A stretch of 48,626 nt of DNA. Source: Candidatus Sericytochromatia bacterium (GTDB lineage Bacteria > Cyanobacteriota > Sericytochromatia > UBA7694). Below are positions 3,814 through 19,791 of the stretch, one piece after another. Within the stretch, counting starts at the first letter, position 1; every line of letters begins with the position of its first letter. The position numbers and the translations under genes were made by a program. The stretch lies in the NCBI GenBank assembly GCA_015272195.1, contig JACYMC010000171.1, positions 1 to 48,626 of the forward strand, given 5' to 3'. Under the pieces are notes generated by a model. The model was given only the letters and a program-made list of their open reading frames with translations, had not been told where the DNA came from and did not search any database.

Positions 3814-5064
3814 CTAATTTTCGGTTAAATTTAGCAGGCTGCCAGCCATGATAATCTGCCCCTGCAGGGTCTGGCCCTGACGCCGCAGGTTGATAATCTC
3901 AAAGGGCAGGCTGGCGCTCTGTTGTGGCCTTGCGTCAGCAGCGCGCGCCAGCGTTTTTGTGCCTGTAACAGAGGGTGCCGCATCCCGTTGCTCAGCGGCC
4001 AGGTTCTGCATGGCCAGGTGCAGTTCCTGGTGCAGGCTGCTGCCAGAGGGGGCGGGGTTTTCCATGCGGGCCAGCTCCAGCAGCTCGTGAGGGTCAAAGT
4101 CGGCTGCTGCGGGCAGTGCCTGCAGCTGCAGTTTTACGGGAATGCGCTGCTGGTCGGAGCCGGTTTGCAGGCTGACCTGCAGCTGATACACGCCGGCCTG
4201 CTGCAGGCGGCTCTGACTTTGCGCCAGCTCCTGGCTCTGAACCTGCAGCAGCGGGGCATTTTCAGCTGAGGCCAGCATCAATTGTGCGTAGTCGCGCGTC
4301 AGGTCAAGCACGCCCTGCAGCAGCTGCTGGCTTTCGGCGGGCTTTAAGCCGCCGTAGATTTGCAGGGCAAACAGTGTTTGAGAGGGTGCGGCCGCAGCGG
4401 GCTGGTTTTGTGGGGTGACCGCTGTGGCGCGCTCTGCCGGTGACTGGTCGCTGCTTGCGGCGCTGGCTGCCAGGGCCAGCCGGGCGTCGCGTTCAGGTGC
4501 GCTGGGTCTGGCCGGTGCTGGGCGGACAGGGGCCGGTTCCAGCGCGGGGCTGGGACTGGTCTGGACGTGCCGGCTCTGGCGGGTTGCTGGCGCTGTAGGT
4601 ACTGACAGGGGCAGCGGGGCAGCCGCGCGCCGGTCTGGCCAGCTGGTGGGGGATGCTGGCGGCGCCGCTGTCTTGGCAGTGGCTGTCTGAGGCCGGCTGA
4701 CAGTCTCGGGTGCCTGTGCTGCCGTCTGCACCGGGGCTGTTGGGGTGGCGGCGCTTGTCTGGCTGGCGCTGTCGGGCGCGGGCTGGCCGGCCAGCTGCAC
4801 GGGCACAGCCAGGGGCCGGGCCTGCTCAGGTGGGTACAGCATGGCTTCGCGGGCCTGGGGTGAAAGCAGCAGCCAGCTGCCCAGCAGGCCCAGAGACAGG
4901 GACATACTCAGCAGAATGGTTAAAAAGGTGCTGGTATGTTTGGGGCGCAGCGTAAACACAGACAGCTTACGCTTGCCCAGTTTGCGTCCCCAGTTGTTGC
5001 CAATATAGGCGCTGAGGCCGCTGGCCAGTACAAACAAAACGGTTAACCAGAAAACAGGAGGCAC
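3814..5064 (-). CDS. DUF3084-type membrane protein with Ala/Pro-rich linker
   Basis: 416 aa from a GTG start. The N-terminus has two membrane helices (about 4-22 and 44-67) bracketing a basic loop with GNNWGRKLGKRKLSVFTLRP, which closely resembles the start of DUF3084 proteins of cyanobacteria and Deinococcus. Residues about 75-225 are a low-complexity Ala/Pro/Gln/Thr linker, and the rest is a compact domain rich in Gln and Leu, ending in INLRRQGQTLQGQIIMAG. Known DUF3084 proteins have a coiled coil in this place, so this is a diverged version. Function unknown. It is divergent from the NlpC/P60 lipoprotein gene. Inference: an inner-membrane-anchored envelope protein. Confidence 0.7.
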   Translation of the reverse strand: MPPVFWLTVLFVLASGLSAYIGNNWGRKLGKRKLSVFTLRPKHTSTFLTILLSMSLSLGLLGSWLLLSPQAREAMLYPPEQARPLAVPVQLAGQPAPDSASQTSAATPTAPVQTAAQAPETVSRPQTATAKTAAPPASPTSWPDRRAAAPLPLSVPTAPATRQSRHVQTSPSPALEPAPVRPAPARPSAPERDARLALAASAASSDQSPAERATAVTPQNQPAAAAPSQTLFALQIYGGLKPAESQQLLQGVLDLTRDYAQLMLASAENAPLLQVQSQELAQSQSRLQQAGVYQLQVSLQTGSDQQRIPVKLQLQALPAAADFDPHELLELARMENPAPSGSSLHQELHLAMQNLAAEQRDAAPSVTGTKTLARAADARPQQSASLPFEIINLRRQGQTLQGQIIMAGSLLNLTEN

Positions 5065-5138
5065 AGCAGGCTCTTTTCTTTTGGATCTTACTGCTAGTAG
5101 ATTAGCATATTTTTATCACAGTTTTGGATCGGATTTTA

Positions 5139-5147
5139 TGGCATAAT
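5139..5147 (+). promoter_or_regulatory. Extended -10 of a probably leaderless lipoprotein gene
   Basis: TGGCATAAT is an extended -10 (TGn then CATAAT) ending 6 nt before the ATG at 5154. The start codon would be at or next to the transcription start. I find no Shine-Dalgarno and no clear -35. Confidence 0.45.
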
Positions 5148-5153
5148 CAGCTT

Positions 5154-5789
5154 ATGCGTATATGGATGATTCTGACACTGAATATCTGCCTGACGGCTTG
5201 TGCTGTGCAGTTAAAGCAGGCCAGCCAGCCCTGGGATAAAACAGCCTCACAGCCCGGTGTGCCCGCCGGTACTTATGGTAAACGCTGGGGGCCCGCTGGA
5301 GCGCCCGAACCTGCGGGGCCAGCGCTGCGTCGTTCAGATCAGCCCGCGTCTTCGCCGTCTGTTCCGGGCTGGAAAGTTCCGCTGCCAGAGCCGGGCCGCC
5401 CGGCCCAGGGCGCGCAGCAAACGGATGCCGGTGTGCTTGAAGTGGCCCGGCAGTATCTGGGGGTGCCCTATCGCTTTGGCGGCAGCACGCCTGAAGAAGG
5501 TTTTGACTGCTCTGGTTTTGTGCAGTATGTGTTTGCCCAGCGTGGTCTGCGCCTGCAGCGCCAGGCCAATCATCAGTTTCTTGAAGGGCAGCAGGTGTCA
5601 CGCGAGCAGCTGGCGCCCGGAGATCTGGTGTTTTTCTCGGTTTCGGGCGGTATCGTTGATCATGTCGGCATTTATGCCGGCGAAGAGCTGTTTATCCATG
5701 CGCCCCGAACCGGGCGCACGGTGTCGTATGACAGCCTCGACGCCCCCTACTTCAAAACGCGTTTTCAGGGGGCGCGGCGGCTGCTTTAG
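5154..5789 (+). CDS. NlpC/P60 family lipoprotein, peptidoglycan endopeptidase
   Basis: 211 aa. The start at 5154 gives a short lipoprotein signal peptide with lipobox LTAC and Cys16; a longer TTG-initiated frame would ruin the signal. A Pro/Gly-rich linker (20-90) leads to an NlpC/P60 domain (about 92-211) with catalytic Cys119 in FDCSGF, His170 in DHVGIY and His182 in FIHAPR. Such enzymes cut D-Glu/diaminopimelate bonds in peptidoglycan stem peptides, here probably from a membrane anchor facing the periplasm. The stop codon overlaps that of the convergent lipoprotein gene by 4 nt (TTAG). Family and residues are clear; substrate is inferred. Confidence 0.92.
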   Translation: MRIWMILTLNICLTACAVQLKQASQPWDKTASQPGVPAGTYGKRWGPAGAPEPAGPALRRSDQPASSPSVPGWKVPLPEPGRPAQGAQQTDAGVLEVARQYLGVPYRFGGSTPEEGFDCSGFVQYVFAQRGLRLQRQANHQFLEGQQVSREQLAPGDLVFFSVSGGIVDHVGIYAGEELFIHAPRTGRTVSYDSLDAPYFKTRFQGARRLL

Positions 5790-6382
5790 TTGCTGCTGGT
5801 GGCAGGGGTAGCGGAGGCTTCTGGCGCCGGGGCCACGGCATTGGTTGCGGTGTCGGCATTAAAGCGGAAATCAAAGTCTTTAAAACCGTCCAGACCAGAG
5901 ATGACCGTATTGCCGTCAGCATCTTTGGCGCCCTGGTAACCCACCACGGGCAGCCAGGTAATATTGGCTTCAGCGGATTTCAGTTCGCCTTCGTCGTACA
6001 GGTTATTGCCATTGGCATCGTTGAACACAAACAGACGCAGATTGGCCGCATTGGCTTTCTGGGGTGCTTTGGGCAGGGCAAAGCGATAGGCGCCGTCGGT
6101 CACAGGAGCCGTGGCCAGGGTGGTGTCTTCATCAATGGTTTTGTTGCTGGCATCAATGCGGTTGCCAGAGGTAGCGTTCATAAAGGCGCCATAGAGGGCC
6201 ATTTTGGTGTTGCTGCCCACGCCGGTGCCGTCGACGCTGCCTTCAATGGTTTTGCTGTCGGCTTCCAGGTTTTCGCCGGCGCTGTTTTGCAGCTGGGGGG
6301 CGTTGGGGCCACAGGCACTCAGGCTCAGGGCCAGCAGGCTGGCAAACAGAGGGGCAAGCAGGGTTTTACTGGGGGTTTTCAT
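5786..6382 (-). CDS. Putative lipoprotein (198 aa)
   Basis: Signal peptide with lipobox LSAC and Cys24, followed by a beta-rich domain without a family I recognise. It contains a calcium-loop-like or surface-protein-like segment, NDANGNNLYDEGE, as often seen in bacterial surface domains such as SdrD_B-like or transthyretin-like folds, and an Ala/Pro/Thr-rich tail. Start: GAGGAA sits 6-7 nt before the ATG. It would be anchored to a membrane facing the periplasm or the outside. Tail-to-tail 4-nt overlap with the NlpC/P60 gene. Function unknown. Confidence 0.85.
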   Translation of the reverse strand: MKTPSKTLLAPLFASLLALSLSACGPNAPQLQNSAGENLEADSKTIEGSVDGTGVGSNTKMALYGAFMNATSGNRIDASNKTIDEDTTLATAPVTDGAYRFALPKAPQKANAANLRLFVFNDANGNNLYDEGELKSAEANITWLPVVGYQGAKDADGNTVISGLDGFKDFDFRFNADTATNAVAPAPEASATPATSSN

Positions 6383-6418
6383 GGGATGTTCCTCGCTGTG
6401 AAGATAGCTATCAAATCA

Positions 6419-6445
6419 GGCCGTGTACAGCGATTGCACACGGCC
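6419..6445. repeat. Inverted repeat, possible terminator or attenuator
   Basis: Perfect 8-bp stem GGCCGTGT / ACACGGCC with an 11-nt loop, between two leftward genes (stop of the 94-aa gene at 6497, start of the lipoprotein at 6382). No T-run follows on the minus strand. It could end the serS-pilT transcript or fold in the lipoprotein leader. Confidence 0.4.
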
Positions 6446-6496
6446 GTTTGGGTTTAAGACGCAGGGGGGCTTAAAAAAGTTTCAATTTGAGTGGGG

Positions 6497-6781
6497 TCAG
6501 CTCGCAAAAGCAAAAGCGGGGTGTGAGCTTTCGAGGGCTGGCAGGCCCCGGTGGCGGGCAATTTCGAGAATCAGTTTGTCGGAGAGGATGGCCAGATGCT
6601 GCTCAACCCAGAGGTCCCAGTCGGGACTGTCGCCCTGCACAAAGTGCACGTCAATGCGATGGGGCTGGGCGTCAACGGTCCAGAGCAGCAGGCCCTGGTG
6701 ATCTTCGCTGCGGTAAGTCAGCGTGCCGCAGAGCTGTTTGTTGTCGTGATCGCGTTCAATGTCGAGGGCGAGGATTTGCAT
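6497..6781 (-). CDS. Hypothetical protein (94 aa)
   Basis: Not recognised. The ATG at 6781 is chosen because AAGGTG lies 7 nt upstream; the longer open frame to 6907 has no site and an unlikely Ser/Ala/Arg-rich N-terminus. It begins MQILALDIERD and looks like a small alpha/beta protein (strands LCGTLTYR and GLLLWTVDA, helix DWDLWVEQHLAILSDKLILEIA). It lies 100 nt downstream of pilT and may be the last gene of that operon. No membrane segment. Confidence 0.7.
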   Translation of the reverse strand: MQILALDIERDHDNKQLCGTLTYRSEDHQGLLLWTVDAQPHRIDVHFVQGDSPDWDLWVEQHLAILSDKLILEIARHRGLPALESSHPAFAFAS

Positions 6782-6881
6782 GGAGTTCACCTTTATTGTG
6801 TTGTGTTGGGTGGCTGCTATCATTATGCCTCTGCCGGTGCGCTGGGGGCTGTGACTGCACTCACCGCACCGGCTGGCTTTC

Positions 6882-7958
6882 TCAGCGGCCGGAGCCGTGG
6901 AAGGCACCGCGCTTCCACTGCATCAGCTCGTTGTGGTTGTCTGAGAGGCGCAGAGCCTCTTCAAAAGTGATCACGTCCTGTTCGTAATAGCCAAACAGGG
7001 CCTGGTTCATGGTCTGCATGCCGTCCTGCTCGCCCTTGGCGATCAACTGGTAAATGGCATCCAGCTCGTGTTTGTAGATGTGGTCGCGCACGGTGGGGGT
7101 GACCACCAGAATTTCGTTGATGGGCACACGGCCCACCCCGTCTTTTTTGACCGCCAGGCGCTGGGCAATGGTACCACGCAGCACGGCGGCCAGCTGTTTG
7201 AGTACGGTCTGCTGCTCATGGGGCGGGAAGGCGTTGATGACGCGGTTGATGGTCTGTACGGCGTCGTTGGTGTGCAGGGTGCTTAAGACCAGGTGGCCGG
7301 TTTCAGCGGCCTTGAGGGCCGACTCAATCGTGTCGCGGTCACGCATCTCACCGACCAGGATGATGTCGGGATCCTGACGCAGGGCGTATTTGATGGCGTT
7401 GGGGAAGTTGGAGGTATCGTTGATCAGCTCGCGCTGGGTGATCACACTGCGCTTGTTGCGGTACACAAATTCGATCGGGTCCTCAATCGTGATAATGTGT
7501 ACGTCTTTGTTGGCGTTGATAAAATCGATCATGCCCGCCAGGGTGGTGGTTTTACCGGAGCCGGTGGGGCCTGTCACCAGAATCAGGCCGGTGCGTTCTT
7601 CGGTGAACTTTTTGATTTGCTCTGGCAGACCCAGGTTTTCGACGTTGGGAATATTGATCGGAATGACGCGCAGCACCGCGCCCACGTGCCCCTGCTCCAG
7701 AAAGATGTTGACACGGAAGCGGGCCAGGCCGCTGATCATAAACGAGACGTCCATTTCCTGGTTGCGCTCAAAGGCCTCACGCTGGGCGTTGGAGAGCATG
7801 GAGTACAGGGTACGCTTGGTGTCCGCCGGGGTCATCGGGCGCATTTCGGTCGGTACAATGCGGCCGTCAATGCGCAGCATGGGCGGCGCGCCGACGCGAA
7901 TGTGGATATCTGAGGCGCGCTTTTTAACGGCGACCCGCAAAAATTCATCAATATTCAT
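6882..7958 (-). CDS. pilT: Type IV pilus twitching motility ATPase PilT
   Basis: 358 aa, a normal length for PilT. Seen: N-terminal PAS-like part with KKRASDIHIRVG, Walker A GPTGSGKT (130-137), Asp box IEDPIEF (158-164), Walker B-like DPDIILVGEMRD (196-207) and His box STLHTNDA (226-233). PilT is the hexameric motor that depolymerises type IV pili during retraction. Its Walker motifs, lack of an N-terminal GspE/MshEN domain, and SDIHIR start favour PilT over PilB. AGGGAGA lies 6 nt before the ATG. It follows the 176-aa gene by 12 nt in the serS operon, an unusual neighbour for a pilus gene. Confidence 0.93.
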   Translation of the reverse strand: MNIDEFLRVAVKKRASDIHIRVGAPPMLRIDGRIVPTEMRPMTPADTKRTLYSMLSNAQREAFERNQEMDVSFMISGLARFRVNIFLEQGHVGAVLRVIPINIPNVENLGLPEQIKKFTEERTGLILVTGPTGSGKTTTLAGMIDFINANKDVHIITIEDPIEFVYRNKRSVITQRELINDTSNFPNAIKYALRQDPDIILVGEMRDRDTIESALKAAETGHLVLSTLHTNDAVQTINRVINAFPPHEQQTVLKQLAAVLRGTIAQRLAVKKDGVGRVPINEILVVTPTVRDHIYKHELDAIYQLIAKGEQDGMQTMNQALFGYYEQDVITFEEALRLSDNHNELMQWKRGAFHGSGR

Positions 7959-12068: not shown

Positions 12069-13435
12069 AGCGCGGGCAGCATGGCCAGTACCTCGGCGTA
12101 AGCGTTCAGCAGCGTTTGCTGCAGCTGGCGGCGCGCGACAGGATCTTCACATTGCAGATAGCGGCTTTCAAGGGCCTTGATCTCCGTCTCCTGAAGCACC
12201 CAGTCCTGCTGGGCCTGGGCCAGTGAGTTCAGCAGCGTCTGCTGTTCAGCCTTACGGCGCTTCTGGGCCCAGTGCTGACAGGCCTGCTGCAGCGTCTGCA
12301 TCAGGGTGTCAAATTGCTGCAGCCAGTCCGTCAGGGCCTGGGCCAGTTCTGGCGCGAGGCCTTCACGGGCTGCCGCCCAGCCGTCGCGCTGCCGGGCCTG
12401 CTCCTGGGCAATCCACTGGTGTCCCCCGGGCAGATCCAGGCGGGCCAGCTGTTGCTGGGCCGATTCCAGCAGGCTGACGCCTGCGGGACAGGCCGGTGGC
12501 TGGCCGAGTAAACGGCTGAGGTTTTGCAGGCTTTTTAAGCGCAGGGGGCGCCACTGGCTGAAGTGCTCCGCACGGGCCTGCGCCAGCTTTGAGCAGTCGC
12601 CCGCCAGTTCCTGGCTTTGCCGGGCCAGGGCCTGCAGCTGGCGCATGGCAAAAAAAGCCACCTGTTGCGCCTGCAGCGCTTCGAGCTGGGCCTGCAGAGC
12701 CTGTTTTTCGGCGGGAGAATGGGTGCGCTGGATTTTGGCCCGCAGCTGCAGCATGAGACGGCTGGCCTGAATCGGGTCAAAGCTTGCTACCGGCGCGCTG
12801 CTTACTGCCGGCGGTGTTGCCGGGGTTTCGCCTGTGGACTCAGCGGCGGTACTGGTGCACAGCTGTTGATTCAGCGCCAGAATCAGCTGCAGCAGGGTGG
12901 CGCGCTCCAGCGGAGCGAGGCTGCTGCCCTGCAGTGAACGCAGCTTTTTGAGATAACCCGCTTCGGCTTCGGGCACCTGTGCAGCACCGCCGGCTTTCAG
13001 GGCATCCCATTTACAGGCCTGGCACTGTAGCAGGGGGTGCAGCACCGACATCGTGGCCAGATCGCGGGGGGCGTCGGCGCCGGCATAACAGCTTTTGAGA
13101 CTGGCAATCACGCGCATCAGGCCCTCATGTAGCCCCTCGGGCTCAGCTGGCAGGGCTTTGAGTCTGACCAGCATGGATTTCAGGCGCTCGGCCCGACCCT
13201 CAGAAGCGCTAAGCTGCAGATTTTGTTTGAGACGCGCAGCCACGGCCTGGTTTTCGGCTGAAGGCGCTTCTTGTTTGCGGGCTTCTTCGCGCTGTACCTG
13301 CTGGCTGAGTCGCTGTACTGCCGGTGGCGGCTCGGGAATATCGCAGAGCGCGGGGCCCTGGCTGTCGACCAGACCGGCCGGCATTTTAAAGCTGGCGGGG
13401 TCAAAATCGGCGGTATCGGCAAAGATGGCCTTCAT
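12065..13435 (-). CDS. Hypothetical coiled-coil-rich protein (456 aa), partner of DUF5939 protein
   Basis: Not recognised. Start: the ATG at 13435, with GGAG 8 nt upstream; the ATG overlaps the TGA of the upstream gene (TGATG), so translation is probably coupled. It is rich in Gln, Ala, Leu and Arg with long amphipathic, probably coiled-coil helices (about 35-110 and 215-450), plus a Cys-containing segment around 115-140 (CYAGADAPRD and LQCQACKW). A Thr/Pro/Ala linker sits near 200. No signal peptide or membrane segment. It is always read with the DUF5939 protein upstream, which suggests a shared complex or pathway (inference). Confidence 0.8.
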   Translation of the reverse strand: MKAIFADTADFDPASFKMPAGLVDSQGPALCDIPEPPPAVQRLSQQVQREEARKQEAPSAENQAVAARLKQNLQLSASEGRAERLKSMLVRLKALPAEPEGLHEGLMRVIASLKSCYAGADAPRDLATMSVLHPLLQCQACKWDALKAGGAAQVPEAEAGYLKKLRSLQGSSLAPLERATLLQLILALNQQLCTSTAAESTGETPATPPAVSSAPVASFDPIQASRLMLQLRAKIQRTHSPAEKQALQAQLEALQAQQVAFFAMRQLQALARQSQELAGDCSKLAQARAEHFSQWRPLRLKSLQNLSRLLGQPPACPAGVSLLESAQQQLARLDLPGGHQWIAQEQARQRDGWAAAREGLAPELAQALTDWLQQFDTLMQTLQQACQHWAQKRRKAEQQTLLNSLAQAQQDWVLQETEIKALESRYLQCEDPVARRQLQQTLLNAYAEVLAMLPAL

Positions 13436-15348
13436 CACAGGAACTCCGTCAGCAGGTTGTCAAACTGAAACGCGATCCAGTCTGCACCGCAGTCTGATGT
13501 GTCCGTTAGGCGCTCCCATGTGGCCAGCGGATCTTCCAGAAACAGACGCATTTCAGGGCTTTGCAGCAGATCTGTGCCGACCACCAGACGCTGGCCGTCG
13601 GCATGGGCCAGGGCTTCACGGCTCTGCTCCAGGGCCAGCCCCCGGTATGCCAGTTGCTGCCCCTGGGCAAAGACTTCACAGGGCCCCTGCACCACGGCCA
13701 GGGCCAGCTGTGGCGCTGCGTTATAGAGCAGCCCAAGAAGGGGCAGTTCCTGGCTGATGCTCCAGGCTGCTGACAGGGCTTCAAAGGGGCTGGCAAAGAG
13801 GCCCAGCAGGCTGTTTTCTGTCAGGGGGCAGGCCGCCCCTTCATGGGCCTGAAAGTGTTGCTTTAACCAGTCAAGCAGCTCTTGCTGCACGGCCGGCAGG
13901 CTGTCGGGCGCTTCGGGCTCCTGCAGCTGTTCAGGGTTCAGGATTTCTGCCCGGACAAAGATCTGATTCTGCAGCGGCAGGGCTTCGTGGGGGGCCAGCA
14001 CTTCCTGCGGAAAAAGATCCTGAAAAGCCTGCAGTGATTGTGCCCTTGCGGCGGTGACCGCCTGGGACTGCCAGGCGGGATTTTCGAGCATCAGGCTGAG
14101 TTCATGGCTGCGGCCATTATGGACCTGCAGCTGCCCGCCCTGTAACAGATTCAGGGTTTCGGCTTCTGGCTGATCGTTGAGCACAAAGTCAGCTGCAATC
14201 GCCAGCCGGGTCTGTGCGGAAGCGTCAGCAGTCTGTATCTGCAGCAGGATTTCGCGGCTGCAGGCCAGGCTGCGCAGAATATAAGGGCCTGGCGGCAGAT
14301 CAATCACAAAGTTACGCGTTTCACCGGGCAGCAGGTTTTGCTGCCAGCTGATGTGCGGCGTGTTGCACGGACTGCCGGCACAGAAAAAACGCTCCTGCGT
14401 TGGCCGCAGGCGCGCACTGGGCTGGAAGCTCAGCTCCAGGTTCTGATCAAAGGCCAGACCGTAGCTGACGGCACAGGTTTCGCAGTAGGCCACGGCTTTG
14501 ATGTTTTGCAGGTTTTTAACGCTTTCTTTGGGCCCTTTGCAGCCCGGGCAGCGACAGTCCCAGAGCAGGTGCAGATCGCCCTCGCGGCTGAGCAGCAGGC
14601 AGTCTTTGAGGACCTCCAGCGGATCCAGGGCGTAGGCTTCGGCCAGTTCAAAGGGGCGCAGGCGATAAGCCAGCCGCTCCGGGGCCCGATAGATATAATC
14701 GGCCAGGGCGCTGGCAATGTCTGCGCTGGGCAGCAGTGTCTGCCAGCGCTGGCTGAGGGCATGGAGGGCGGCCTGCTGCGCGGGACGCGCGTCAAAAAAG
14801 GCTTTCAGTACGGGCGTGCCGGCGGCCAGCCGATCGGCCAGCTGTCTGAAGGTTTTGATAAAACGCTGGATTTCTTTGCGGATCAGCAGGCGGGCCACGG
14901 CGGCCGGCAGGTGGGCTACAAAGTCAATGGTGCAGGTGACGTCGCTTTCCTGCGGGCCGGCGCTGCTCAGCTGAACGCCGAAGGCCAGGTATTTTAAAGG
15001 ACCCTTGCTGTGAATGCGCTCAACCTTGTAGTAATGGGGGGCCAGCCATTCATAGGGCATTTCTTCATAGGCCACCGGCAGGCCGCCGTTTTTGGTGCTG
15101 CAATGCATCCAGGTACTGCCGTAGGGCCGGGCCAGGTAGGCGTTGCGGGTGCTCTGCATGCCCACGGCCTGGTTCAGAAAGTCGTTGGCGGCCAGCACCT
15201 GCCAGAGCAGCTCCGGCTGCCCTGGTAGCCGCACGCTTGCGCTGACCGGCTGGGCCTGCTGACGCAGCTGCTGCAGATTGTCGGCGCTGCGCAAAGCTGC
15301 AGCACGTGTTTCAGGCAGCGGATAGACAGGATTTTCTGCGTCTGGCAT
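13435..15348 (-). CDS. SRPBCC-DUF5939 protein with degenerate nucleotide-cyclase domain
   Basis: 637 aa from the ATG at 15348, with AAGGAG 7 nt upstream; a TTG-initiated longer frame would swallow that site. Three parts: an SRPBCC/START-like ligand-binding domain (about 35-200; begins SVRLPGQPELLWQVL), a DUF5939 domain (about 200-390) with putative zinc ligands DCRCPGCKG and YCETC, then FCAGSPCNTPHISWQQ, and a C-terminal region resembling a class III adenylate/guanylate cyclase fold. In the last part the metal-binding Asp positions look substituted (IFVRAEIL and LTENSLLGLF), so catalysis is unlikely. Known DUF5939 proteins are annotated as cyclases; this one is more likely a sensor or scaffold. 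The following gene overlaps. Confidence 0.75.
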   Translation of the reverse strand: MPDAENPVYPLPETRAAALRSADNLQQLRQQAQPVSASVRLPGQPELLWQVLAANDFLNQAVGMQSTRNAYLARPYGSTWMHCSTKNGGLPVAYEEMPYEWLAPHYYKVERIHSKGPLKYLAFGVQLSSAGPQESDVTCTIDFVAHLPAAVARLLIRKEIQRFIKTFRQLADRLAAGTPVLKAFFDARPAQQAALHALSQRWQTLLPSADIASALADYIYRAPERLAYRLRPFELAEAYALDPLEVLKDCLLLSREGDLHLLWDCRCPGCKGPKESVKNLQNIKAVAYCETCAVSYGLAFDQNLELSFQPSARLRPTQERFFCAGSPCNTPHISWQQNLLPGETRNFVIDLPPGPYILRSLACSREILLQIQTADASAQTRLAIAADFVLNDQPEAETLNLLQGGQLQVHNGRSHELSLMLENPAWQSQAVTAARAQSLQAFQDLFPQEVLAPHEALPLQNQIFVRAEILNPEQLQEPEAPDSLPAVQQELLDWLKQHFQAHEGAACPLTENSLLGLFASPFEALSAAWSISQELPLLGLLYNAAPQLALAVVQGPCEVFAQGQQLAYRGLALEQSREALAHADGQRLVVGTDLLQSPEMRLFLEDPLATWERLTDTSDCGADWIAFQFDNLLTEFL

Positions 15349-15377
15349 GCACATCTCCTTCAAGGGGTCTGGCGTAT

Positions 15378-15468: not shown

Positions 15469-15861
15469 ATGTCAAGTGTAACACGTCAGCTTTCGCCGTT
15501 TCAGTTTAATCGTCAGGCGGCAGCGCCGCCGCCAGTCTCAGCGTCTGTGGCGGGCCCTGACCGGCAGGAGCCGGTCAGCCTTTCAGATCTTGAAAGCCGG
15601 GTCAATGACAGCCTGCAGCTGGGCCAGATGCCTGCTGAGCTGCAGCAGAGCAACCAGGCGCTCAGCCAGGCTCTGCAGCAGCTGCGACAGCTTTCCGGCA
15701 GCGGGCTCAGGCCACGCCGCTCAGTATGCTGCAGCGCTTTCAGACTGAGACCCTGCCCCAGAACCTGGGCCAGCTTGAAAACAGCTTGCAAACCCTGGAG
15801 GATCAGCTGGCGACCCTGCCGCCTGACAGCCCGGAGCGCGCGGCGCTGGCGCTGGACCTGA
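15469..15861 (+). CDS. 5' fragment of the giant helical protein (frameshifted)
   Basis: Starts at the ATG at 15469, with GGGAG 10 nt upstream. The first 80 residues are soluble: a Ser/Pro/Gln/Ala-rich leader then a helical segment (LSDLESRVNDSLQLGQMPAE, QALSQALQQLRQL). After about 15,703 this frame turns into Arg/Cys-rich nonsense, while the next frame continues with normal helical protein. So I regard it as the N-terminus of the 15,726-19,193 protein, separated by a -1 shift or a missing base. If the GGG at 15703-15705 were GGGG, the two parts would join cleanly and encode about 1,241 aa. Confidence 0.6.
   Translation: MSSVTRQLSPFQFNRQAAAPPPVSASVAGPDRQEPVSLSDLESRVNDSLQLGQMPAELQQSNQALSQALQQLRQLSGSGLRPRRSVCCSAFRLRPCPRTWASLKTACKPWRISWRPCRLTARSARRWRWT
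15639..15726 (+). other. Frameshift window in the giant gene
   Basis: The upper frame is coding-like until about 15702, and the lower frame is open from 15639, so the shift lies within this span, most likely at GGG 15703-15705. No slippery heptamer of the X XXY YYZ type is visible, so an assembly indel or a true mutation is likelier than programmed frameshifting. Confidence 0.6.
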
Positions 15862-18800
15862 CGCTGACCCAGAATACCCTGGCGCTTTACAGCGCAGCAG
15901 AAAGCCTGTTGGCAGCTTCACCTTTGCTGGCGCAGGGACAAACATCTGCCGCTAAAGCCCCTGCTGCTGAAGGAGCAGCCCCGCCCGCTGAAGCCCCAGC
16001 ACCTGCGGCAGACGATCTTGCACCCATCCCGACCCTTGCCGACAGTCTGAGCCCTGACTTGCTCAGCGCTGCTGCGGGTCAGTTCGGCATCTCGGTGACC
16101 GATCTTGAAAACCTGCTCGACACCTTTGACGGTGAAATTGATGCCATCAATCTGCTGGCCAATCGCATGAAGCCAGTTGAAGGCCAGTTTAACCGTGCTG
16201 AAGCGGGTTTTCTGCGTTCTTCGTCTTCGCTCAAAACCCTCTCGCGGGCCTTGCTGGGCGTGATTCAGCCCACCGAAGGCACTGATAACAGGCCCATGAC
16301 CGGTTCGGCGGCAGCCATCCGGCGGACCCAGGCTCTGCTGACCTTTTTGATGGAGTCGCGCCGTTTGGAGCAGAGCAACCCACAGCTGGCCGGTCGGCTG
16401 GGGCTGAGCCGACTGAACCAGGCCGTGGCCGGGAGCATCTCACGCTTGCCCAGCCCGAGTCTGCAGAATATTCTCAACCGTTATATTGGCAACAATAACC
16501 GTGCAGATACCGCAGACGCCAAACAGCGCCTGGCAGACCTCAGCAAGGTCCTCAGTTATTTCAGCGGTGAGAGCGACCTCAACCTCGATACCGGCCGGGC
16601 CCTGTTTGAGCTGGTGCTCGATAATGGTGTGGATACCGTCAGGGGGCTGGGTGAACTCCTGCCGGCGGGTCCAGCGCGTGAACGCTATGAGCAGATGCTC
16701 AACCGGATCGAAAACAGAATCCAGAGTACGGTACAGCGTCTCGGCAGTGAGGCGCCCAGCTTTCTCAGGGGGCTTGTGAACAGCTCACCGGAAGCTTCAC
16801 GTTATGTGCTGCGCTTTCTGACAGAAGATGGGGTAGGGCGCTATGCAGCAGCGGTGGATTTGGTTGGCACCTTTGCCGAGTCTGAAATTGCCCAGCGCTT
16901 TTTGGGGGCTGGTGGCCAGCGCAACCTGCAGGCGCTCACGGAATTTTTATCGCTTGACAATATTGGCCGGGACTATCTGCGCAAAATTCTGGATAGCAAT
17001 GCACCGGCTGGCAGCCGTTTTAACGCCTTGAATAATTTAGTCAGAGATATTGTCAAAGACAAACTGCCCGGGCTGTCTGCTCTGCAGGTCCAGAGTTTTG
17101 AGAGTCTGACGGGCCGCGCTCTGGACCGTTTTGCCGGCCTGCTGGGCCTGGGCAATGCCGCTGACGCCGCACGGGCTGCCGATGACGTGCTGCCTGCGGC
17201 TGCGCGGGCAGCTTCGGATGCCTTGCCGGATGCTGCCGGGCTGATTGCCCGCCAGAGTGATGAATTGATTCAGGGGGCTTCTCTGACACGGCCTGCACGG
17301 GCAGGCCTTGAAAGGCTGCTGGGCGCCAGCCCGGCCCGGGCTCAGGAGGTGCTGGATGTTTTAAAGACCATGGACCCCAGACAACTGGATACGGTCTTGC
17401 AGATTGCTGCTGAAATGGAGCCCGCCCGTGCGCTGAATATGGTGGTCGGTGAGGGCATGGGGGCCCGCTTTCTGCGCGGCGTGGCTGAGATGGTGCCTTA
17501 TCTCAGAAGCTATGGCCTGCGCGTGGCTGATATTGTGCCCAAGCTCGGTCGGGCACTGGGCAAGGCTGTTCCTGCGATAGGGGCCGCGCTGTCGGGTTAC
17601 GATACGGTGCGCATGGGCAGGATTGCCCTGACCGGCAGTTATAATGGCCGTCAGTATTCAGATCCTGATGTGCGCATGCTGGCCCTGGCGGGTGCGGCGA
17701 CCAATGGCCTTGATACTGTACTGGGTGCGCTGGAGGCTTTTGGGGTGGGCAATGTGGCTTTTCCGCTGCAGCTGGGCCTGGCGGGCGCTTCGCTGGCCCT
17801 GGATCTGATGGTGGAATATTATAACGACAATCCCCAGGCCATGCCCCCGGCCATGCGTCAGGCCATTCAGTACAGCGCGGCCACTGTGGCTGTAACCGCT
17901 CCTTTTGTGGTGCCCGGTGCGGGGATCGCTGCCAGTGAAGCGATTGTCAGCATTTATGGCCGTGAACGAACGGCTGAGATCTTTGGCGAGCTGGTTTCTG
18001 AAGTGGGCGATCGGGCCCTGGATGCCCTCAGTGATCTGGGGCAGGCAGGTCTGGCAAAGCTTCAGGCTCTGGCCACGGCCGGCGGCGAGCTGGGGCTGGC
18101 GGCCGTCAGACAGCTGGCCAGTATGGGTGAGCAGGGCATTGCCGTGCTGAAAGATCTCGTGCTGCAGGGGGGCCAGATGGCTGACGCTGCCTTGAATGCC
18201 ATCGTTCGTGCAGCCCGAAACCAGGGCGCGGCAGCCCGCGAGGCGCTGCTCTCGTTGGCCCGTCAGGCTGGTGCCATCGGCAGCCGGGCCATTGAGCAGC
18301 TGGGCAGCCTGCGGGATTGGGGGGCTGAACAGCTCAAAAATCTCGTCGCTGCCGGCATTCCACTGGCCCAGGAAGCCATCAGCCGCCTCAGCAGCATGGG
18401 ACAGGCAGGTTTTGAAGCCCTCGAAAGCCTGGTTAAAAGCGGGGGGCAGTTTGCCCAGCAGGCCTTTAACGCCTTGCTGGCCCAGGGCAATGCGGCCATT
18501 GACCAGCTCAAAGACATCGCCCTGAGCGGGGCCCGCCTGGGCCGTCAGGCCTTTGATGCCCTGATAAACAAAGGCCGGGCGGCTATTGACGCCCTGCAGG
18601 AAATCGGGACCCGCGTATCGGCTTATGCCGGGGAGGTGATTACAAAGCTCAGCAATCTTGGCGAAGCGGCTGAAGCGGCCATCACGGCCATTGGGACTCG
18701 CTTCAGCCAGTATGCCGATGAAGCCATCAGCGGCCTGCGGCGCATCGGTGCCCGGGCAGTTGACAGCATTCAGGCCCTGGCCAGAAGGTATCCAGCCCTG

Positions 18801-19193
18801 CGCAGTAACGCCATCCGGGCTTTTGCTGCCATTGGTCCGGCGGCCAGCCGGGCCCTGAACACCCTGATTGATCAGATGTGGGCCGCCGTACAGACCAGCG
18901 TGAACCAGCTGATGGGCCTGGCCAATGAACTGGGTGCTGTCTCCAGCCGGGTGCTGCGCAATATCAGCACCACGCTTTCGCGGGGCTGGCAGCGCTCGAC
19001 GATTGATCTGATTCCCTTTAATGGCCGCGAAACCAATCTGCGGCCTTTGATCGATGCCTTTTCGGGGTTGCTGCGCAAAGCCGGGGCTGCCGGCTCGCAG
19101 GCTTACCGGCAAATGCGCCAGCTGGCCATGAACGCCCTGCGCGATCTGGGGGTGCCGTTGCTGGCGATCCGAGCCCTGCAGCGGGTGGTCTGA
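15726..19193 (+). CDS. Giant alpha-helical protein with tandem short-helix solenoid
   Basis: 1,155 aa in this frame; the frame is open back to 15639 and probably belongs to one gene starting at 15469. No family recognised. Almost all helical: an N-terminal helical part, an Ala/Pro-rich linker (about 70-95), and a large region (100-550) with many predicted helices. A hydrophobic stretch follows (about 610-745: KAVPAIGAALSGYDTVRM, AFPLQLGLAGASLALDLM, TAPFVVPGAGIAASEAIV) that could be membrane-inserting or buried. Then come about 20 units of 14-15 residues (positions 18006-18887) ending in a basic tail. No signal peptide. The next gene starts 1 nt after the stop. An intracellular scaffold or an exported factor are both possible; no evidence decides. 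Confidence 0.75.
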   Translation: MLQRFQTETLPQNLGQLENSLQTLEDQLATLPPDSPERAALALDLTLTQNTLALYSAAESLLAASPLLAQGQTSAAKAPAAEGAAPPAEAPAPAADDLAPIPTLADSLSPDLLSAAAGQFGISVTDLENLLDTFDGEIDAINLLANRMKPVEGQFNRAEAGFLRSSSSLKTLSRALLGVIQPTEGTDNRPMTGSAAAIRRTQALLTFLMESRRLEQSNPQLAGRLGLSRLNQAVAGSISRLPSPSLQNILNRYIGNNNRADTADAKQRLADLSKVLSYFSGESDLNLDTGRALFELVLDNGVDTVRGLGELLPAGPARERYEQMLNRIENRIQSTVQRLGSEAPSFLRGLVNSSPEASRYVLRFLTEDGVGRYAAAVDLVGTFAESEIAQRFLGAGGQRNLQALTEFLSLDNIGRDYLRKILDSNAPAGSRFNALNNLVRDIVKDKLPGLSALQVQSFESLTGRALDRFAGLLGLGNAADAARAADDVLPAAARAASDALPDAAGLIARQSDELIQGASLTRPARAGLERLLGASPARAQEVLDVLKTMDPRQLDTVLQIAAEMEPARALNMVVGEGMGARFLRGVAEMVPYLRSYGLRVADIVPKLGRALGKAVPAIGAALSGYDTVRMGRIALTGSYNGRQYSDPDVRMLALAGAATNGLDTVLGALEAFGVGNVAFPLQLGLAGASLALDLMVEYYNDNPQAMPPAMRQAIQYSAATVAVTAPFVVPGAGIAASEAIVSIYGRERTAEIFGELVSEVGDRALDALSDLGQAGLAKLQALATAGGELGLAAVRQLASMGEQGIAVLKDLVLQGGQMADAALNAIVRAARNQGAAAREALLSLARQAGAIGSRAIEQLGSLRDWGAEQLKNLVAAGIPLAQEAISRLSSMGQAGFEALESLVKSGGQFAQQAFNALLAQGNAAIDQLKDIALSGARLGRQAFDALINKGRAAIDALQEIGTRVSAYAGEVITKLSNLGEAAEAAITAIGTRFSQYADEAISGLRRIGARAVDSIQALARRYPALRSNAIRAFAAIGPAASRALNTLIDQMWAAVQTSVNQLMGLANELGAVSSRVLRNISTTLSRGWQRSTIDLIPFNGRETNLRPLIDAFSGLLRKAGAAGSQAYRQMRQLAMNALRDLGVPLLAIRALQRVV
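18006..18887 (+). repeat. Tandem 14/15-residue helical repeats in the giant protein
   Basis: About 20 protein-level units alternate 14 and 15 residues (one is 18), so the underlying unit is about 29 residues. The consensus is a helix of the form A-x-x-A-(I/L)-x-x-L-x-x-x-G, e.g. GLAAVRQLASMGEQ and AQEAISRLSSMGQA. The DNA is not repeated exactly, so the repeats are old. Confidence 0.7.
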
Positions 19194-19194
19194 G

Positions 19195-19791
19195 ATGAGC
19201 GAAACCTTCGATTTTAAACAACTCTGGCAGGTGGCGCTTGAGATGGAGTCCGAAAATGCCCAGGGCTTGTGCCAGCAGGCCCAGCAGGCCAGCACCTGGC
19301 CAGACCGGATGCAGGCGCTGCGCAACGGACTGGCCCATTCTCCGGCGGACGCAGCCCTGCTGCAGACACTCCAGGCGGCCTGTACACAACCGGCAGCGCT
19401 TCGCACCGGTCTGCTGCAAAGTGAGCTGACGGGTCTTGAAACCCTCGTGCTGGCCCTCAAAGCCCTGCCAAAGCCCTCGGCAGAGGCGGACGGGCAGCTG
19501 CTGCAGACCTGGATTGATTTGCTGGAGGCTCACTTCTATGCCAGCGTGCCAGAGCGCGCGCCGGGAGTACAACAGACGGCCCTGGCGCAGCTGCTGCAGA
19601 CCCCTCTGCCGGACGCCTGGCCGGTCAGCGCGGCAGATTTACCGCACTGGGTCCGTGAGCAGCCCCTGGAAGCATTGCAGGATCTGAAGCTGCGCTGCAT
19701 GCAGCTGCTGTCAGAGGGCGGCGGCACTGACGCTCTGCAGCAGATGCTGCAGTATCTCAATGCCAGTCTGATGTTGCGCCAGCTGACCTGA
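19195..19791 (+). CDS. Hypothetical helical protein (198 aa), partner of the giant protein
   Basis: Not recognised. The ATG follows the giant gene's TGA by 1 nt, with GGTGG 7 nt upstream, so the two are almost certainly co-translated. It is all helical, rich in Leu, Gln and Ala, with pairs of amphipathic helices (for example residues 5-35 and 60-90), acidic overall, and has no signal peptide or membrane segment. A chaperone or adaptor for the large protein is the natural guess from size, charge and position; unproven. Confidence 0.8.
   Translation: MSETFDFKQLWQVALEMESENAQGLCQQAQQASTWPDRMQALRNGLAHSPADAALLQTLQAACTQPAALRTGLLQSELTGLETLVLALKALPKPSAEADGQLLQTWIDLLEAHFYASVPERAPGVQQTALAQLLQTPLPDAWPVSAADLPHWVREQPLEALQDLKLRCMQLLSEGGGTDALQQMLQYLNASLMLRQLT

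Follow-up and report, generated by a model that had tools for sequence, protein, structure and literature searches.

The gene and its 29-residue array

The locus studied here raises the question of what structure is formed by an array that repeats every 29 residues, in a large unannotated protein of an uncultured Candidatus Sericytochromatia bacterium, and what such an array might do. We analyzed the gene within its stretch of DNA (48,626 nucleotides; hereafter the window) and compared the protein with relatives from the same phylum. The features to which we refer are as follows.

15469..19193, + strand: whole gene, probably one reading unit, from ATG 15469 to the stop at 19193; profile A2 matches it in two frames
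15726..19193, + strand: open reading frame P0001, 1155 aa, without Cys and without His
15469..16025, + strand: N-terminal domain with an xLSPxxFxR start, a Pro/Ala linker and a helical segment (alignment A2 and profile search)
17190..17960, + strand: conserved, Gly-rich hydrophobic domain, aa ~489-745 (alignments A1 and A4, profile searches, hydropathy)
17961..18950, + strand: 29-residue array, aa 746-1075 (autocorrelation, phase, charge layout, AF2)
18951..19190, + strand: C-terminal tail, aa 1076-1155, which aligns with the C-termini of orthologues

ATG 15469 is the probable start of the gene, and the reading frame probably breaks between ~15705 and 15726, because the N-terminal profile is split over two frames. 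This profile (A2) was built on three relatives plus 15726-16028 of the window itself. Its hits are 15469-15789 in one frame (E 1.6e-13, model 3-111) and, in a second frame, 15705-16025 (E 2.5e-37, model 84-185); a GGGAG motif lies 9 nt 5' of the ATG. The overlapping frames (15469-15861 and 15705-16025) each fit half of the profile and a short G run adjoins them; the break at ~15705-15726 may be either a sequencing error or a mutation. The open reading frame (15726-19193) contains 0 Cys and 0 His in its 1155 residues, where about 11 and about 30 would be expected from the other genes of the window. A 600-aa antisense reading frame (17658-19460, - strand) was taken to mirror the amphipathic, G+C-rich pattern and not to be a gene.

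The array covers aa ~746-1075 (~17961-18950), slightly more than the 18006-18887 given in an earlier note, which had described a 29-residue period with sub-periods of 14 and 15. This description held: lag 29 is the top peak of the BLOSUM62 autocorrelation (z 12.8, 0 of 1000 shuffles, aa 746-1075), followed by lags 58, 15, 87 and 14, which are also far above chance, and aa 1-745 of the reading frame show nothing of this peak (lag 29, z 1.4). Unit anchors fall at aa 772, 801, 834, 863, 892, 921, 950, 979, 1008 and 1037, and their spacing is 29 in eight of the nine intervals and 33 in the remaining one, which makes a +4 change the sole indel of the array. At the DNA level the copies are 60-77% identical over the whole copy, and TRF found no 87-nt array in this DNA. 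The regularity thus resides in the protein and not in DNA identity, as the note had claimed, and the note was also right that the array is helical and under protein-level selection.

The repeat also proved to be undescribed, in that profile searches found no named repeat family matching the array; none of the HEAT, HEAT_PBS and TPR profiles does so, and comparison with PDB sequences returned no relative of either the array or the whole protein. A profile of alignment A1 gives weak dPPR and alpha-solenoid hits, only in its first 90 positions, which lie upstream of the array. The earlier note had read the 29 residues as the two-helix unit of a solenoid with one turn per unit. In agreement with this reading, the spacing is almost invariant, Gly stands close to the end of every half-unit, and the one Pfam repeat model that responds is ARM-like (PF16416 GUN4_N, aa 782-813, 32 aa, E 5e-4), although its score of 20.4 bits lies under the cut-off of 24.3. 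HEAT, HEAT_PBS and TPR solenoids share with the array that they are alpha-helical repeats of ~30 residues.

One helix phase runs through the array

A length of 29 residues equals 8 helical turns at 3.625 residues per turn, 14.5 residues equal 4 turns, and the +4 indel is about 1 turn. Because the lengths of repeat, sub-repeat and indel are all close to whole turns, they would keep the apolar stripe on one side of a helix; the 29-residue unit would therefore be a unit of helix registration and not the structural unit of a solenoid. The polar/apolar spectrum peaks at 3.64 residues (8.64, versus a shuffle 99% maximum of 1.85). A fixed period of 3.63, which in the window alone is inseparable from the 8th harmonic of 29, accounts for 0.337 of the mean local hydrophobic moment of 0.36 over 321 aa (94%). 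The orthologues provide the separation; the two that have a full array belong to a single genus and do not count as independent. In one of them, G001_C40, the mean local moment over 411 aa is 0.38, and the same fixed period captures 0.343 of it. For this orthologue the top lags are 76, 54, 58, 87, 18, 22, 36, 47, 11 and 43; a lag of 29 is absent, and all are near whole multiples of 3.63. Its phase at T = 3.625 stays at 54-98 degrees in every 44-aa window with starts from 703 to 1088.

This coherence is abolished when random loop-length changes (-1 to +2 residues) are put between blocks, with 0 of 2000 trials retaining it in each of nine tests (blocks of 15, 29 or 44 aa in three proteins). The moment is 0.32-0.34 at a period of 3.63, 0.025-0.066 at 3.5 and 0.05-0.10 at 3.667. 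The near-zero values at the last two periods rule out a heptad coiled coil, and a hendecad coiled coil or the 11/3 helix of perilipin-4, respectively. As controls, we used the longest frames of ten HEAT_2-matching loci (from the window's genome and from related genomes) and one TPR protein. The array family peaks at 3.625-3.63 with an amplitude of 0.346-0.397 (ratio 0.97-1.0), whereas the HEAT controls peak mostly at 3.78-3.86 with an amplitude of at most 0.264 and the TPR control at 3.4 with 0.18. The controls thus have other periods and lack the long-range helix phase of the array.

The solenoid reading is not supported by these results: a single phase extends coherently from unit to unit and is kept by orthologues whose unit length differs, the controls behave differently, and the array has no relative in the PDB. 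We consider it improbable. If our reading is true, long-range phase at 3.63 would offer a simple sequence test to distinguish long helices from similarly long solenoid repeats.

Charges are laid out as in class A helices

The apolar stripe consists of Leu, Ile, Val, Ala and Gly, and its side of the helix carries hardly any charge, with two or three charged residues within 60 degrees of the apolar axis in each of the three proteins (321-411 aa). The array as a whole is neutral (32 K+R versus 31 D+E), and its charges are sorted by angle: measured from the apolar axis, the median angle is 106-124 degrees for K/R and 145-151 degrees for D/E, a contrast found in all three proteins (p 2e-4, 6e-4 and 2e-4). 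In the class A helices of exchangeable apolipoproteins, K/R lie at the polar-apolar interface and D/E in the middle of the polar face (PMC8146922), and this arrangement was seen in each of the three proteins with p <= 6e-4. In the HEAT controls the two medians are 102 degrees for K/R and 108 for D/E, computed with a shorter smoothing span of 6 residues; with that span the window's array gives 82 versus 143 degrees, and the two orthologues are weaker (p 0.07 and 0.03).

A proposed giant amphipathic helix

The periodicity, the phase coherence, the charge layout and the modular, conserved neighbours of the array are features read directly from the sequences. We propose, at about even confidence, that the array forms a single, very long amphipathic helix (or a few long ones connected at kinks) suited to a lipid surface. 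Continuity of the helix is well supported by the sequence and inferred in three dimensions, and lipid binding may be expected from the charge pattern. In this model the ~330 residues, ~50 nm when fully extended, would lie along the surface of a membrane or of a lipid or polyhydroxyalkanoate (PHA) inclusion, with Lys/Arg flanking the apolar face and Asp/Glu taking the centre of the polar face, as in apolipoprotein helices. The preceding Gly-rich hydrophobic domain (hydropathy peaks at aa 677-695 and 718-736) may act as an anchor or assembly part.

Two observations count against a single helix. Gly makes up ~10% of the array and includes Gly-Gly pairs, which is unusual in a stable helix, and these positions could mark turns; the orthologues carry NP motifs, which should at least kink a helix. 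The main rival to a helix on lipid is a rod or scaffold in which long amphipathic helices pack together, as hairpins or as a straight, barely supercoiled bundle that makes Ala/Gly contacts, with the apolar face serving protein-protein contact. Such a bundle would give an equal polar/apolar stripe. The 3.63 period suits straight bundles, and the composition (Ala 21.5%, Gly 10.3%, with Gly on the apolar side) is typical of close packing. On the other hand, a bundle has no need of a class A charge layout, and the array is neither heptad nor hendecad.

AF2 models bear on each of these readings, as supporting evidence of low confidence. For the array alone, AF2 predicts helices of 84, 54, 128 and 52 aa (pLDDT 58, low confidence); together with one orthologue, aa 489-1155 give array helices of 23-47 aa (pLDDT 46.5, low confidence). 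The regular solenoid that the note had expected of such a model did not appear, since the helices of the array alone are 52-128 aa long and form no short pairs. The split into several long helices would fit a bundle, whereas confident packing is absent (pTM 0.29). Overall, we regard the bundle as somewhat unlikely.

Comparison with known lipid-surface proteins

Our best reading is that the array works like the helices of apolipoproteins and perilipins, by a likeness of mechanism and with no claim of kinship. A close parallel is perilipin-4 (Plin4), which likewise has an amphipathic helix of hundreds of residues in tandem whole-turn units. Plin4 is built from 11-/33-residue units in a 3-11 helix with 3.67 residues per turn, has weak faces rich in Thr, Val and Gly, and has no insertions or deletions between its 33-mers (PMC5889406). 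In contrast, the array has 29-residue units at 3.63 residues per turn, a face rich in Leu, Ile and Ala, and one +4 indel. The exchangeable apolipoproteins share its interfacial K/R and central D/E. In apoA-I, the 22/11-mers are interrupted by prolines. The 22/11-mer organization of apoA-I is described in the paper that also lists a mean hydrophobic moment of 0.39 for it (PMC5889406), versus 0.36 for the array on the Fauchere-Pliska scale. The array would have a 29/8 register, a straight stripe at 3.63 residues per turn, unlike perilipins, synucleins and apolipoproteins with their 11/3 register.

Phasins (TIGR01985, PF09361) resemble the array in their Ala-rich amphipathic helices and give a weak profile echo (E 0.004 and 0.05). 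They are short (~110-120 model positions), unlike this giant protein, and a phasin identity was rejected on the scores (TIGR01985, 17.6 bits against a cut-off of 99.7; an orthologue's phasin score, 14.3 against 24.9). A role as a granule coat is possible because a PHA synthase operon is present in the genome and no Phasin_2 gene was recognised in it or in any other of the five genomes searched; nothing ties the array gene to the operon. We tentatively suggest a bacterial giant amphipathic helix with a 29-residue, 8-turn register that coats a membrane or a storage inclusion, much as apolipoproteins do, in these non-photosynthetic relatives of cyanobacteria. If true, this would be an independent bacterial way of coating lipid surfaces with a single, very long helix, in a register unlike that of the animal proteins. 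It would also give a testable handle on a family of unannotated giant proteins in Candidatus Sericytochromatia, a group for which the sources consulted report chiefly metabolism derived from genomes.

A modular family of giant proteins

The protein is best read as a member of a Cys-poor, modular family of giant proteins, apparently confined to one family of Candidatus Sericytochromatia. The hydrophobic domain (aa ~489-745), its most conserved part, occurs in 3 of 386 genomes sampled from the phylum (the window's own, G000, with G001 and G004), all of the window's own family. Alignment A1 is too divergent to serve a pattern scan. A whole-protein homologue search of viral and genome contigs returned no match, and a search of contigs with the conserved-core profile matched a single named contig, of Candidatus Sericytochromatia bacterium MAG_89 (G004). 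There, the hydrophobic domain is repeated in proteins of 1304-4352 aa. The N-terminal domain occurs as a single copy in each of G000, G002, G003 and G004, and the C-termini of the large proteins that carry it are otherwise unrelated.

This layout is compatible with a further explanation, which would not conflict with a helix on a lipid surface: an exported modular protein that would use its hydrophobic domain and its amphipathic helix to enter a target membrane, for delivery or pore formation. The sharing of one N-terminal domain by proteins with unrelated C-termini and the expansion of the family in G004 fit it, as does a family-wide depletion of Cys (6 in 13,819 aa, 0.043%, versus 0.92% in window genes), which agrees with export or an extracytoplasmic location without proving either. 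No signal peptide is evident by eye, though, and we recognised neither a secretion motif nor a toxin domain in the protein, nor an immunity-like or export gene among its neighbours. We judge export for delivery to be decidedly improbable.

A 2373-aa relative (L014:6321-13442, - strand) has two copies of the hydrophobic domain and its own strong 15-residue repeat at aa ~500-1070 (lags 15, 30 and 45), a helix-loop array of another kind (LGxxSxEEAxxLMxx) with polar periods of 3.71 and 3.0. A 4352-aa protein (L015:4696-17754, + strand) looks all-helical and also has two copies of the hydrophobic domain. A 1904-aa protein (L016:6784-12498, + strand) has the shared N-terminal domain, a ~260-aa C-terminal domain twice in tandem, and no Pfam match over the cut-off.

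Neighbouring genes and the PHA operon

The neighbours of the array gene encode DUF5939, DUF4127, GAF, M16 peptidase and housekeeping proteins. They bear on the idea of a tape-measure-like or contractile-system component. Phage tape-measure proteins are likewise long, helical and repetitive, one PHROG model gives a weak echo (phrog_1272, tail tape measure, E 0.008, aa 905-1097), and Baseplate_J genes occur elsewhere in G000, G001 and G002. Against this, the window genes that were scanned include no recognised tail or injection gene, the array has no match among phage records, no relative turned up on viral contigs, and G004, which has most family copies, has no Baseplate_J match. We rejected a tape-measure protein on its neighbours and the lack of phage relatives, and a contractile-system component of any kind seems highly improbable.

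The divergently transcribed neighbour (13435-15363, - strand) is the one that matches DUF5939 (E 3.6e-11). Downstream of the array gene, a helical protein of 198 aa is encoded at 19195-19791; next to the orthologues, the downstream gene encodes a conserved protein of 267-289 aa that looks unrelated to it. Because these downstream genes differ, the downstream partner is not conserved. The PHA synthase operon of the window's genome (G000:C256; L043:3829-7515, also delimited as 4226-7515) encodes a small helical protein, an SDR reductase, a 121-aa protein and, in tandem, two PhaC-like synthases of 351 and 375 aa.
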